Assembly (NCBI RefSeq): GCF_900116375.1
Contig: NZ_UETB01000003.1
Span: 172,890-236,889, forward strand
Length of the DNA stretch: 64,000 bases
Source: Georgenia satyanarayanai
GTDB lineage: Bacteria > Actinomycetota > Actinomycetes > Actinomycetales > Actinomycetaceae
Direction: 5' to 3'
The position numbers were made by a program, and so were the translations under genes. The number at the start of each line of letters is the position of its first letter. Within the stretch, counting starts at the first letter, position 1. The notes under the pieces are model-generated. The model was not told where the DNA came from. It ran no database searches and saw only the letters and a program-made list of their open reading frames with translations. This document shows positions 1 to 56,914 of this stretch, piece by piece.

Positions 1-1490
1 ACGCCGGCCATCATGAGGCCGAGGACGTCGCGCTCGGTGTCCCCCGGGACGACGCCGACGACGCGCCCCCGGTACATGACGGCGATGCGGTCGGCCAGGG
101 CCATGACCTCGTCGAGCTCGGTCGAGACGATGAGCACCGGGGTGCCCTTGTCCCGCTCGGCGACGATCTCCTTGTGGATGAACTCGATCGACCCGACGTC
201 GACGCCGCGGGTGGGCTGGGAGGCCACGAGCAGCCGCAGCGGACGTGACATCTCCCGCGCGATGACGACCTTCTGCTGGTTGCCGCCGGAGAGCGTGGAG
301 ATGGGGTCGTGCACCGAGGTGAGGCGCACGTCGAACTGCTCCGCCCGCCGGTGCGCGTTCTCCTCGACGACCCCCGGCTTGAGGCTGCCGAGCGAGGCGA
401 AGGGCTGCGTGTCGTACACGTCGAGGATGAAGTTCTCCGCCACGGTGAAGCCGGCGATGACCCCGCCCGTGGAGCGGTCCTCGGGGACGAAGCCGATGCC
501 GGCCCGCAGCCGCTGCTTGACCGACCTGCCGACGAGCTCCTTGCCGTCCAGGACGATCGAGCCGGAGACCGGCTCGACGAGGCCGAGGATCGTCTCGGTC
601 AGCTCGGTCTGGCCGTTGCCCTGGACACCGGCGACGACGACGATCTCCCCGTGCCGGACGGTGAGGTCGAGGCGGTCGACGGCGACCTGGCCCTTGCCGT
701 CGAGGACGGACAGGTCGGTGACGACGAAGGACTCCTCCCCCGGCGCGGCGTGGCCCTTGTCGACGGCCATGCTCACCGAGCGGCCGACCATGAGGGAGGC
801 GAGCTCGGTCTCCGAGCTCTGCGGGCTCGCCTCGCCGACGACCTTCCCGCGGCGGATGACCGTGATGGAGTCGGCGATCGCGCGGACCTCGCGGAGCTTG
901 TGCGTGATGAAGACGATCGAGGTGCCCTCGGCCTTGAGCTGGCGCATGATGCCGATGAGCTCGTCGGTCTCCTGCGGGGTGAGCACCGCCGTCGGCTCGT
1001 CGAGGATGAGCACCCTGGCGTCCCGCGAGAGCGCCTTGATGATCTCCACGCGCTGCTGCACACCGACGGGCAGGTCCTCGATGACGGCGTCGGGGTCGAC
1101 GTCGAAACCGAAGCGGTCGGAGATCTCCTTGACCCGCTTGCGCGCCTCGCGCTGACTGATGATGCCCAGGGGCCCGGTCGGCTCGTAGCCGAGGGCGACC
1201 GACTCGGCGACGGTGAAGACCGGGACGAGCATGAAGTGCTGGTGGACCATGCCGATGCCGGCGGCGACGGCGTCGCCGGGGCCGGAGAAGGTCGCGGGCT
1301 GCCCGTCGAGGAGGACCTGCCCCTCGTCCGGGTCGTACAGGCCGTAGAGCACGTTCATCAGGGTGCTCTTGCCGGCCCCGTTCTCACCGAGCAGGGCGTG
1401 GATCTCCCCGGGCTCCACGACGAGGTCGATGTGGTCGTTGGCGACCAGGGGGCCGAAGCGCTTGGTGATGCCGCGAAGCTCGAGCTTCAC
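1..1490 (-). CDS. BMP-associated nucleoside/sugar ABC transporter ATP-binding protein, cut by window edge
   Basis: Energising subunit of an ABC importer with two fused nucleotide-binding domains (RbsA/YufO type), acting on the cytoplasmic face. It reads on the minus strand from a GTG at 1488-1490 preceded by GGAG about 7 bases upstream. The first Walker A, GENGAGKST, covers residues 35-43. The second-domain signature LSGGNQQK lies near bases 260-285, and the last visible residues, RDVLGLMMAG, resemble the usual family C-terminus, so only a few residues are missing beyond the window. It follows the bmpA lipoprotein gene, with a strong hairpin between them. By context the substrate is probably a nucleoside, as known for BMP-type systems. 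The permeases should lie just outside the window. Confidence 0.88.
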   Translation of the reverse strand, partial: MKLELRGITKRFGPLVANDHIDLVVEPGEIHALLGENGAGKSTLMNVLYGLYDPDEGQVLLDGQPATFSGPGDAVAAGIGMVHQHFMLVPVFTVAESVALGYEPTGPLGIISQREARKRVKEISDRFGFDVDPDAVIEDLPVGVQQRVEIIKALSRDARVLILDEPTAVLTPQETDELIGIMRQLKAEGTSIVFITHKLREVRAIADSITVIRRGKVVGEASPQSSETELASLMVGRSVSMAVDKGHAAPGEESFVVTDLSVLDGKGQVAVDRLDLTVRHGEIVVVAGVQGNGQTELTETILGLVEPVSGSIVLDGKELVGRSVKQRLRAGIGFVPEDRSTGGVIAGFTVAENFILDVYDTQPFASLGSLKPGVVEENAHRRAEQFDVRLTSVHDPISTLSGGNQQKVVIAREMSRPLRLLVASQPTRGVDVGSIEFIHKEIVAERDKGTPVLIVSTELDEVMALADRIAVMYRGRVVGVVPGDTERDVLGLMMAG

Positions 1491-5385: not shown

Positions 5386-6077
5386 TGTCCACCACTCATA
5401 CTGCAGCGCGGCAGGTCAAGGGCCGCCGCACGTCGGTCGCCCTCAAGCTCGTCATGGCCGTCACCGGCGTCATCTTCCTGCTCTTCGTGCTGGCCCACCT
5501 GTACGGCAACCTCAAGGCGCTGTCCGGCCAGCAGGCCTTCGACGACTACGCCCACCACCTGCGGGTGCTCGGCGAGCCGATGCTGCCGGAGTCCGGCTTC
5601 CTGTGGGTCATGCGCCTGGGCCTCATCGTCAGCCTCGTGCTCCACGTGTGGTCCGCGATCGTGCTCGCGCGGCGCAACCGCGCGGCCCGCACGCAGAAGT
5701 ACGTGATGAAGAAGTCGGTCTCCTCGAGCCTGTCCTCGCGGACGATGATGTGGGGCGGCCTGGCGCTCCTCCTGTTCATCGTCTTCCACATCCTGCAGTT
5801 CACGACCCTGACGATCGAGGTCGGCGGCTCCTTCGACAGCCCCTACGACCGCCTCGTCGCCGCCTTCGAGACGTGGTGGCTCGTGGCCATCTACGTCGTC
5901 GCGATGATCGCGCTCGGCATGCACCTGCGCCACGGCATCTTCAGCGCCGCGCAGACCCTCGGCTGGTCCAACCGCACGCGCCAGCCGATGATCAAGGCAG
6001 TAGCCCTGGCCGTCGCGGTCCTCGTCGTCGTCGGCTTCCTCGTCCCGCCGCTCGCCATCGCCTTCGGGCTCGTCTAG
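5385..6077 (+). CDS. sdhC: Succinate dehydrogenase cytochrome b subunit
   Basis: Membrane anchor of complex II, 230 residues with about five transmembrane helices. It carries electrons from the iron-sulfur subunit to menaquinone. Likely haem-ligand histidines sit in LAHLYGNLK, LVLHVWSA, VFHILQF and GMHLRHG, the pattern of the single-subunit (di-haem, type B) cytochrome b of Gram-positive bacteria and corynebacteria. The open frame continues upstream, but similarity begins at VSTTHTAARQVKGRR, so the GTG at 5385 is used. sdhA follows 21 bases downstream. The order C-A-B is typical of actinobacteria. Confidence 0.93.
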   Translation: MSTTHTAARQVKGRRTSVALKLVMAVTGVIFLLFVLAHLYGNLKALSGQQAFDDYAHHLRVLGEPMLPESGFLWVMRLGLIVSLVLHVWSAIVLARRNRAARTQKYVMKKSVSSSLSSRTMMWGGLALLLFIVFHILQFTTLTIEVGGSFDSPYDRLVAAFETWWLVAIYVVAMIALGMHLRHGIFSAAQTLGWSNRTRQPMIKAVALAVAVLVVVGFLVPPLAIAFGLV

Positions 6078-8812: not shown

Positions 8813-8832
8813 CCCGCCGCCCCCTCTCTTCA

Positions 8833-8904
8833 GCCGAGTACGCACAAACGGTCACCCAGCGGCGCCTGCAGCGCCGCCTGGGTGACCGTTTGTGCGTACT
8901 CGGC
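8833..8904. terminator. Very long palindrome between convergent sdhB and yihY
   Basis: Arms 8833-8865 and 8871-8904 pair over 33 bases with one bulged G and a 5-base loop (CTGCA). It fills the space between the sdhB stop (8812) and the stop of the opposing YihY gene (8906), so it can serve both directions as a bidirectional terminator. The arms are about twice the length of an ordinary intrinsic terminator and lack a T-tract. Confidence 0.75.
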
Positions 8905-8905
8905 G

Positions 8906-10271: not shown

Positions 10272-10313
10272 GCCGACAGCTGGATTCCTGTCACCAGGAA
10301 TCCAGCTGTCGGC
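10272..10313. terminator. 19-base-arm palindrome after the GH2 gene
   Basis: Perfect 19-base arms 10272-10290 and 10295-10313 with a TCAC loop. It lies just past the stop of the minus-strand glycosidase gene and upstream of the YihY start. The arms start GCCGACAGCTG, reminiscent of but not identical to the GCCGAGAGCTGAG family elsewhere in the window. Confidence 0.75.
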
Positions 10314-23087: not shown

Positions 23088-23122
23088 CCTCTCGGCGCGC
23101 CCGCCCCCGCCCCCTCCCCGCC

Positions 23123-23254
23123 GAGAGCTGAGTTCTTCACCGCACCCTGTCGGGAACAACTCAGCTCTCGACGCACCCCGGAACCGCCGCCGCGCCCCCT
23201 CCTCGCGGAGAGCTGAGTTCTTCACCGCACCCTGTCGGGAACAACTCAGCTCTC
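23123..23254. repeat. Two direct copies of a 47-base palindromic element after galK
   Basis: Copies at 23123-23169 and 23208-23254 are identical over 47 bases, starting GAGAGCTGAGTTCTTCACCG and ending CAACTCAGCTCTC. Each folds on itself: the outer 12 bases pair perfectly and the next few imperfectly. They lie between galK and the convergent exonuclease III gene, where they can act as terminators. The core GCTGAGTTGTT recurs at 44233-44422 and 56802-56841. Confidence 0.85.
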
Positions 23255-23321
23255 GGCGCACCCGGGACCCGGCCTCTCCCGCCGAGACCCCGGCCTCTCC
23301 CCGCGGGACCCGGGGGATCGG

Positions 23322-30167: not shown

Positions 30168-30225
30168 CGTTCCTCCGCATGTCTCACTGGGTGCGCGCCG
30201 GGGCGCGCGTTGCCGGTGACCCTCG

Positions 30226-30314
30226 GCCCAGGCGGGCGACCTGCGGTCTGCGTGGTTCGTCGCTCCCCGGTGGTGATCCACCTCTGGCGCCAGTCGCGAC
30301 AGGGACAGACTCTA
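30226..30314 (-). promoter_or_regulatory. ZTP (pfl) riboswitch controlling glyA-folD
   Basis: On the minus strand the leader shows the pfl consensus in order: CGACTGGCG, then GGTGGATCACCACC, then GGGGAGCG, a variable helix, and CCGCCTGGGC. A -10-like TAGAGT (30309-30314) would start transcription just before the aptamer (about 30226-30302). A GC-rich stem (GCGCGC repeated inverted, about 30192-30209) and the glyA ribosome site lie downstream as the expression platform. Known ZTP riboswitches sense ZTP/ZMP, which build up when 10-formyl-THF is short, and turn on folate genes. Confidence 0.87.
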
Positions 30315-38796: not shown

Positions 38797-38860
38797 GGCT
38801 CTCCTCCGTCGTGGTGTGGCGGTGTTCGTCGGAAGAGTACCGCCGGACGGATGCAAGAAA

Positions 38861-38907
38861 CTCGGCTCTCGGCGAGGAAGGAGGGAACCTTCTCGCCGAG
38901 AGCCGAG
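38861..38907. terminator. 20-base-arm palindrome after mdh
   Basis: Arms 38861-38881 and 38888-38907 (beginning CTCGGCTCTCGGCGAG) pair over 20 bases with one bulged G and a short A/G loop. It lies 10 bases past the mdh stop (38918) and before the AIM24 start region. Confidence 0.72.
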
Positions 38908-38917
38908 CTCCTGTGGA

Positions 38918-44196: not shown

Positions 44197-44232
44197 CGGC
44201 GAGCACTTCCCCCGCCCCCAACTCCCCCTCCC

Positions 44233-44422
44233 GCCGAGAGCTGAGTTGTTACCGACACCCCCTCACGCCGAGAGCTGAGTTGTCACCGACACCCCCTCGC
44301 GCCGAGGTGGGTCGTGACGGACGGGGGCCGCGGAACACGTCGGCTGTCGGTAACAACTCAGCGCTCGGCGACAAGTCGGCTCTGGCGACACGTCGGCTGC
44401 CGGTAACAACTCAGCGCTCGGC
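44233..44422. repeat. Nested double inverted repeat between convergent genes
   Basis: Two left arms (44233-44257, 44267-44291) begin GCCGAGAGCTGAGTTGT, and two right arms (44345-44369, 44398-44422) end CAACTCAGCGCTCGGC. Either left arm can pair with either right arm over about 23 of 25 bases. The 267-base spacer between the FAD reductase and purH stops holds nothing else apparent beyond degenerate AAGTCGGC/ACACGTCGGC repeats. Same sequence family as 23123-23254 and 56802-56841. Confidence 0.85.
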
Positions 44423-44463
44423 GAGAAGTCGGCGCTGGGAGACACGTCGGCTGGTGTCGACTG

Positions 44464-46032: not shown

Positions 46033-46068
46033 GAGGTCACTCCTGGGTTCGCTGGTATCGGACCCGGG

Positions 46069-46159
46069 CACCCAGGCGGGCGGCACCCTGCAGGGGACTT
46101 CCGGCCGCTTCCCGGTGGTGACTCCACCTCTGCGCCAGTCACGGCCACGGTCGAGTCTA
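46069..46159 (-). promoter_or_regulatory. ZTP (pfl) riboswitch controlling purH
   Basis: Minus-strand leader with the pfl elements in order: GTGACTGGCG, GGTGGAGTCACCACC, GGGAAGCG, a variable helix, and CCGCCTGGGTGCC. A -10-like TAGACT (46154-46159) places the start just before the aptamer (about 46069-46147), the same layout as upstream of glyA. The substrate of PurH, AICAR monophosphate, is ZMP itself, so the sensed signal is the enzyme's own substrate. Confidence 0.85.
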
Positions 46160-56709: not shown

Positions 56710-56801
56710 CCGCCCTCCTCGACAGTCGTGTCGGGCTCAGGCTAAGTCTGCCGCGCGCGCCCTGGTGGGAGCCGCGCCGCACACCCCTCCCCCCTTTCGC
56801 A

Positions 56802-56841
56802 CCGAGCGCTGAGTTGTTCCAAGGAACAACTCAGCGCTCGG
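56802..56841. terminator. 19-base-arm palindrome between acyltransferase and pcrA
   Basis: Arms 56802-56820 and 56823-56841 (CCGAGCGCTGAGTTGTTCC and its complement) separated by AA. It lies downstream of pcrA and upstream of the acyltransferase on the minus strand. Member of the GCTGAGTTGTT palindrome family seen at 23123 and 44233. Confidence 0.78.
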
Positions 56842-56852
56842 CGGGAAGGGGC

Positions 56853-56903
56853 CTGTCGGTGGGAAGTGCACTGTCGGCGGGAAGTGCGCTGTCGGCGGGA
56901 GGG
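56853..56903. repeat. 18-base imperfect tandem repeat before the pcrA stop
   Basis: CTGTCGGTGGGAAGTGCA, CTGTCGGCGGGAAGTGCG and a partial CTGTCGGCGGGA follow each other (56853-56900), then a G-run. They lie between the palindrome and the pcrA stop. No coding role seen. Confidence 0.7.
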
Positions 56904-56914
56904 GGGGGTGATGC

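Follow-up and report, generated by a model that had tools for sequence, protein, structure and literature searches.

Short directional repeats at gene 3' ends in Georgenia and Oceanitalea: a candidate REP-like family, probably retained as two-way hairpins

In high-GC actinobacteria few terminators carry a U-tract, and how genes end is debated. Among the closest described systems, the DUS/USS motifs of Neisseria and Pasteurellaceae are paired as terminators (Kingsford 2007, PMC1852404; Frye 2013, PMC3630211, in the parts of both papers available to us). The repeat described here resembles them, as those parts present them, in being a short dispersed motif whose inverted pairs form hairpins preferring convergent gaps and which has dialects among related species. 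It differs in that nearly all clusters lie in gaps, only 3 of 71 being found inside genes, and, on the same portions of text, in copy number and unit: DUS/USS count 1000 or more copies, whereas here there are about 200 copies of a longer, 21-nt unit, of which two types can occur in one genome. It also differs from USS in its common same-direction arrays (73 neighbouring pairs within 120 nt, including 5 no more than 10 nt apart); the accessible part of Kingsford's table (PMC1852404) gives 0–1 USS same-direction pairs within 10 nt. With REP/BIME families it shares many short extragenic palindromes, often grouped and in high copy number, for which roles in termination or mRNA stability have been proposed (Di Nocera 2013, PMC3733652, in the available excerpt). 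Unlike those families as described there, it has no GTAG tag and, in five genomes of the genus, no Y1 transposase; its unit is one arm and not the whole palindrome, and it forms tandem 18-nt arrays and has variable loops. CGTC-REPs, too, are without a dedicated transposase, and the five phyla named for them in that excerpt exclude Actinobacteria (PMC3733652). Hairpin-cluster terminators (Sci Rep 2021, PMC8355165) likewise consist of hairpin groups after genes in which the U-tract is less needed, and they include a GC-rich actinobacterium; that work, in the part available, concerns structure and not repeated sequence. On this comparison the repeat appears to work most like paired DUS terminators and to look most like REP/BIME families. 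It lacks the defining feature tested for DUS (in-gene location) and that tested for RAYT-REP (the transposase), and we file it with the extragenic palindromic repeats. No description of the family was found among the matches listed in a literature search by title and abstract start.

The window analyzed is a 64-kb stretch, whose coordinates are used below, of a source genome of 3,906,813 bases in 37 contigs. An earlier note had described palindromes at 23123-23254, 44233-44422 and 56802-56841, and these are present as described. Its proposal that they belong to a dispersed repeat is borne out by the genome, in which the core GCTGAGTTGTT has 194 exact copies, 97 per strand, against none of the reversed, uncomplemented motif. 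Its claim of a core shared by the three loci holds with a small correction, in that the core is not the same in all arms (GCTGAGTTCTT in the left arms at 23127 and 23212; the arm at 44274 ends GTTGTC). Allowing at most one mismatch, the 11-mer has 10 matches in the window against 0.23 expected, a number reached by none of 100 shuffles, and six folded stretches gave RNA-fold z-scores of −5.85 to −10.09. The two 47-base copies after galK, 23123-23169 and 23208-23254, are identical and lie within an 82-base direct repeat (93% identical, spacing 85). This duplication does look recent, as had been suggested, in that the orthologous gaps of Oceanitalea stevensii Sa1BUA1 (G065) and G041 (probably Georgenia satyanarayanai) are without it and hold other palindromes, G008 not being comparable at that gap. 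Modules resembling an 18-nt sister type, B, adjoin two of the three cited sites, and two further unit-bearing sites were added (Table 1). Rfam at gathering score returned two ZMP/ZTP riboswitches only in the window and nothing at six unit-bearing loci, so a known RNA family was rejected as the identity of the repeat. Both riboswitches are on the minus strand (46063-46152 and 30219-30307), one of them immediately upstream of AICARFT/IMPCHase (purH).

Table 1. Repeat units and associated features; coordinates refer to the window unless a locus is named
Feature	Position	Strand	Basis or remark
Inverted type-A unit pair, copy 1 after galK, left arm GCTGAGTTCTT	23120..23172	.	motif, repeat, fold
Inverted type-A unit pair, copy 2 after galK, duplicated at 85-nt spacing	23205..23257	.	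motif, repeat, fold
Two tandem type-A units, 34-nt period, after Pyr_redox_2 gene	44233..44284	+	
Two inverted type-A units, 53-nt period, interleaved with B-like modules	44352..44422	-	
B-like 18-nt modules, each 3 mismatches from type B	44334-44351, 44370-44404, 44423-44440		
Near-perfect type-A hairpin after UvrD/PcrA-like gene	56801..56842	.	RNA-fold z −10.1 on one strand, −9.0 on the other
Pair of B-like 18-nt modules of the GCCGACAGTGCACTTCCC type, 2-3 mismatches from type B, next to the 56.8-kb hairpin	56861..56896	-	
Perfect type-C hairpin, GCCGACAGCTGGATTCCT in both arms	10272..10313	.	missed by the earlier note
B-like inverted pair at 3' end of minus-strand gene	38856..38912	.	missed by the earlier note
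Family D palindromes, three copies in the stretches compared	8833-8904; L132 ~5652-5722; L089 ~939-1009		
AbiEi-like gene with A+ array before and A- array after, at 3' end of preceding gene	L163:17723-19169 (source genome, C13)		
Related AbiEi-like gene enclosed by inverted type-C units	L168:10107-11307 (O. stevensii); L170:53-1255 (G041)		

The unit is directional and about 21 nt long, CGCCGA(G/C)(A/C)GCTGAGTTGTT(A/C)C, with a C-rich stretch preceding it (185 copies at 63 loci); the profile of these 185 copies with 30-nt flanks has no conserved GTAG or CGTC tag beside the stem. What repeats is a single arm, arranged singly, in head-to-tail arrays, in inverted arrays or in mixtures such as +++----. 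Spacings between same-direction neighbours within 120 nt include 34, 53, 32, 42 and 18 nt, and in 19 of the 40 inverted pairs within 60 nt only 5–6 nt separate the 16-mer arms. Loops are variable, with 30 distinct ones among the 40 pairs, and spacers are alike within many arrays and unlike between sites, a pattern such as local tandem duplication would leave. A separate palindrome family, D, consisting of GCCGAGTACGCACNNACGGTCA and its mirror, has its arms 58 nt apart in all three copies, which lie in convergent gaps of the source genome.

The cited loci had been placed at gene 3' ends, and this agrees with our gene calls, which come from our own codon-model caller and not from annotation: two occupy convergent gaps (23088-23321 and 44197-44463), and the third follows the stop of a UvrD/PcrA-like gene (56710-56914). 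Position relative to gene ends, a tabulation that the earlier note had proposed, was recorded for 100 of the 111 CGCTGAGTTGTT places, plus any of the other 11 within the fetched stretches, and it reveals a preference for convergent gaps and, in tandem gaps, for the upstream stop. Of the 71 clusters, 34 are in convergent, 30 in tandem and 3 in divergent gaps; another 3 fall within called genes, and the last lacks a called gene on one of its sides. Among gaps of at least 30 nt in the sampled loci, the core is carried by 34 of 42 convergent, 30 of 100 tandem and 3 of 42 divergent ones; the loci were picked for carrying the core, so that the contrast between gap classes is what counts (convergent versus divergent, Fisher p=3e-12). 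Units lie nearer the upstream stop in 25 of the 30 tandem gaps (Wilcoxon p=2.4e-4). At 5 of the 71 clusters the end of the called gene runs into the unit by a single base step (gap −1), and at L093 and L127 the TAA stop is supplied by TAACAACTCAGC. The clusters in divergent gaps and those inside called genes, three of each, count against a 3'-end role; tRNA genes were rejected as the reason for the divergent-gap cases, with 0 tRNA in nine loci. In G008, 18-nt arrays lie inside called genes at L160:2357-2570 and L161:2425-2636; they may be translated, as 18 nt keeps the frame, or the gene calls may be wrong.

With up to 4 mismatches allowed over 16 positions, units in both directions are present in 59 of 67 core-bearing gaps, and in one orientation only in 8 of the 67; the chance rate of a unit match on a given strand, estimated on resampled gaps, is 28% (187 of 670 trials). 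Opposite arms also vary together. The variable positions −2 and −1 agree between them in 29 of 36 clusters against 13.1 after shuffling (p=5e-5, the lowest value this test can give). When 26 tight hairpins of the source genome, O. stevensii and G. satyanarayanai are aligned, 27 cells are altered on both sides, compared with 10.3 in shuffles, and the covariation score of 0.141, versus 0.048, was reached by none of 500 shuffles; the number of pairs with two-sided change in these hairpins, 4, was not above that in shuffles (3.7). At the 56.8-kb gap of O. stevensii both arms are altered together, from GAGCGCTG to GACAGCTG, with the core unchanged.

Relatives about 90% identical to the source genome carry sister units. 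Types A, B and C share the first nine positions (GCCGA..GC) and differ afterwards: type B is an 18-nt tandem unit, GCCGASAGCCGASTTSYC, found in G008, with similar tandem arrays at two compared gaps of G084, and type C is GCCGACAGCYGGATTCCT, carried by O. stevensii and G041 as well. A and C coexist at different sites in both the source genome and O. stevensii. A union pattern for A, B and C matches in all six genomes of the genus (source 188, O. stevensii 230, G008 184, G041 122, G084 3, and 5 in G465, whose assembly is 57% complete), with 0 matches for the reversed control; exact core copies within the genus number 194, 130, 16, 1 and 0. Across 396 genomes of the order, a draw in which G084 was not included, the A/B pattern exceeds six matches only in the source genome, G008, G041 and G065. 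Ruania rhizosphaerae (G198) has 20 core copies, mostly in a palindrome of fixed geometry. This palindrome, GCTGAGTTGTTCGGC (L178-L189), spans about 58 nt with the same core and belongs to a species from a different family of the order. Isolated 17-mer matches in Burkholderia and in assorted MAGs were regarded as chance.

Orthologous gaps were compared for 49 source gaps of at least 20 nt in three stretches, the part in the window being unselected and the other two chosen for density; counterparts were available for 45 in O. stevensii, 42 in G008, 39 in G041 and 22 in G084. In this set, 5 of 7 convergent gaps carry units in one genome or more, as do 8 of 35 tandem gaps, and none of the 7 divergent gaps does. 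The sites are often held in common while the arrays on them change. The median difference in gap length between the source genome and O. stevensii is 60 nt in 13 gaps with units and 0 in 32 without, and nine source gaps have type A, their O. stevensii counterparts being of type A in 7 cases and of type C in 2. Another 23 source/O. stevensii pairs, 20 of which were located by the motif itself and are thus biased to presence, yielded 19 usable comparisons, with a full type-A unit in O. stevensii in 16. The type at one site can differ: at L163:10318 there are seven A units in the source genome against five C in G041, two C in O. stevensii and one C in G008, and at L165:16077 G008 has thirteen B where the other three, the source genome, O. 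stevensii and G041, carry A. Where a gap holds at least two units in a genome they are of a single type in 28 of 31 cases, the exceptions being the source genome at 44.2 and 56.8 kb and G008 at 44.2 kb. The O. stevensii gap in L043 orthologous to L119:2426-2643 bears units and contains a long run of G and Ns, which may reflect faulty assembly at the hairpin.

The suggestion that the repeat has been adopted as a terminator is plausible, considering the hairpins, the covarying arms, the convergent gaps and one copy in the relative G. satyanarayanai that has two-way terminator form, with T-rich tails on both strands. It is no more than plausible because most source copies are without a U-tract: among the 44 tails of 22 tight hairpins just 5 are rich in T, and G makes up 58% of the tails, and a simple terminator scan gave no match at the three cited window sites. 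Another feature of intrinsic terminators, a stable hairpin soon after the stop codon, is present with the exception of one-direction and non-folding arrays; at L163:10318, the five C units in minus orientation in G041 (z −0.9) and the two in O. stevensii (z +0.1) have no fold signal. Gaps without units were folded as well, with random seeds that vary the z-scores between runs. Convergent ones have a median z of −3.0 (8 of 14 below −2) against −0.2 for divergent ones (45 of 59 folded; p=0.0009), and tandem ones show no hairpin signal (median 0.1, 45 of 212 folded; p=0.87 versus divergent), implying that a hairpin is not generally required after genes. Four convergent source gaps without units fold strongly, and three of the four, including window 8813-8905, contain family D. 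At 38797-38917 the source genome has a B-like hairpin, and O. stevensii, G008 and G041 share there an unrelated hairpin next to the stop. This suggests that convergent gaps are a slot needing a hairpin, occupied by whichever family is at hand. Substitute hairpins in species without units at such gaps were not significant (p=0.35 and 0.20), in a test whose threshold admits false units, for instance in divergent gaps.

The reading we prefer, with a probability of roughly 0.6, is a REP-like repeat family that is locally amplified and retained as two-way hairpins setting mRNA 3' ends. Its short directional units are found in one actinobacterial genus (Georgenia/Oceanitalea), and an inverted pair of them would give a hairpin of about 20 bp just downstream of stops, most often between convergent genes. 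This hairpin would serve both strands as an mRNA 3'-end element, either as a terminator or as an exonuclease stop after Rho termination; a 3'-end role of the hairpin is favoured, with no preference between termination proper and such protection. Local tandem duplication of unit and spacer would add copies, with both arms held complementary, and in the longer term a sister type could take over the whole array at a site. The sequences themselves show the copy number, the position, the covariation of the arms, the conserved sites with their changing arrays and the types that differ between species at one site. Action of the hairpin in RNA, its terminating or stabilizing effect on transcripts and the way units spread between sites are inferred.

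An alternative that we consider unlikely is a selfish element that is MITE-like or mobilized by an unknown enzyme and is tolerated in the 3' gaps where its insertion does least harm, hairpin and gene-end position being by-products. The widely varying copy numbers within the genus, the fast change in array size and the differences in type at one site would fit such an element, as would an AbiEi-like stretch with flanking arrays at L163. This stretch is present in the source genome and in O. stevensii, where it is split over two contig ends, and in G008 and G041 the matching flanks are only 6 and 11 bases apart. The source gene was assigned by similarity to its O. stevensii homolog, and its protein as called matches no Pfam family. 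The AbiEi-like protein of O. stevensii at L168 matches Pfam AbiEi_4 and AbiEi_1, and at the position of its gene the source genome and G008 show a gap of about 120 bp. The presence and absence of the stretch shows that DNA including unit arrays can come or go; as the case shared by the source genome and O. stevensii has type A and the one shared by O. stevensii and G041 type C, the arrays were probably not carried along unchanged from one to the other. Inverted arrays do not always mark a mobile cassette, an idea rejected on L153 of G008, where they flank an ordinary gene; its neighbours we take to be lpqB-like and hibernation-factor-like, names read from the sequences without a family search. 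Against a mobile element, the tyrosine transposase that would accompany a classical REP, Pfam Y1_Tnp (PF01797), the only transposase family searched for, was found in 0 of 5 genus genomes (G465 left out of the six; control positive in 5 of 14), and a RAYT-type REP was rejected on this ground. By eye, the empty/filled comparison at the 56.8-kb site, the one site so compared, has no target-site duplication. The distinct loops are unlike recent copies of one master, and 7 of 9 type-A gaps keep A in O. stevensii. A MITE, as the earlier note had considered, is not shown, with no duplication seen at that site, sites often common to species and loops that differ. Phage carriage was dismissed, five single matches in viral contigs being taken as chance.

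Less probable still is a protein binding site at the DNA level that fixes the core, with hairpins following from paired sites; gyrase, a nucleoid protein or, as for DUS, an uptake receptor could be the binder. For BIMEs, gyrase or a nucleoid protein has been proposed. The core does behave differently from the stem: in the 40 +- pairs within 60 nt, all 26 core departures are one-sided, none being compensated, versus two-sided change at positions −2 and −1 in 25 of 35. This would mean that the core is preserved for its sequence, although the comparison is biased, since choosing loci by an exact core works against finding core changes on both sides. Pairing alone would not require a fixed core, so some other constraint must maintain GCTGAGTTGTT. 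Counting by the prefix only still gives TGAGTTGTT at 25 of 62 sites in the O. stevensii stretches, which are orthologs of unit-rich source stretches; direct-only arrays exist, and species-specific types recall DUS dialects. Yet the binder is hypothetical, clusters are rare inside called genes, unlike DUS, and two types share one genome at different sites. A related idea, which we rate as more doubtful again, is that the unit is the recognition site of a cellular factor in 3'-end formation, chromosome topology or DNA uptake, with A, B and C as dialects that co-evolve with it. If this were true, a change in factor specificity would lead to arrays being rewritten in fixed slots at gene ends, and the system would be the actinobacterial parallel, acting on gene ends, to the DUS dialects of Neisseria. 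That these are ordinary terminators alike by chance or base composition is highly improbable: hairpins are common at high G+C, but 194 exact copies against 0 reversed ones share sequence and not fold alone.

On the preferred reading of two-way 3'-end hairpins, Georgenia and its relatives offer a repeat family that marks gene ends, with covarying arms and with different versions in sister species at orthologous gaps. Natural comparisons of two kinds become available: whether structure or sequence is what such a hairpin requires, and how short repeats for which no transposase is known spread and come to supplant each other.
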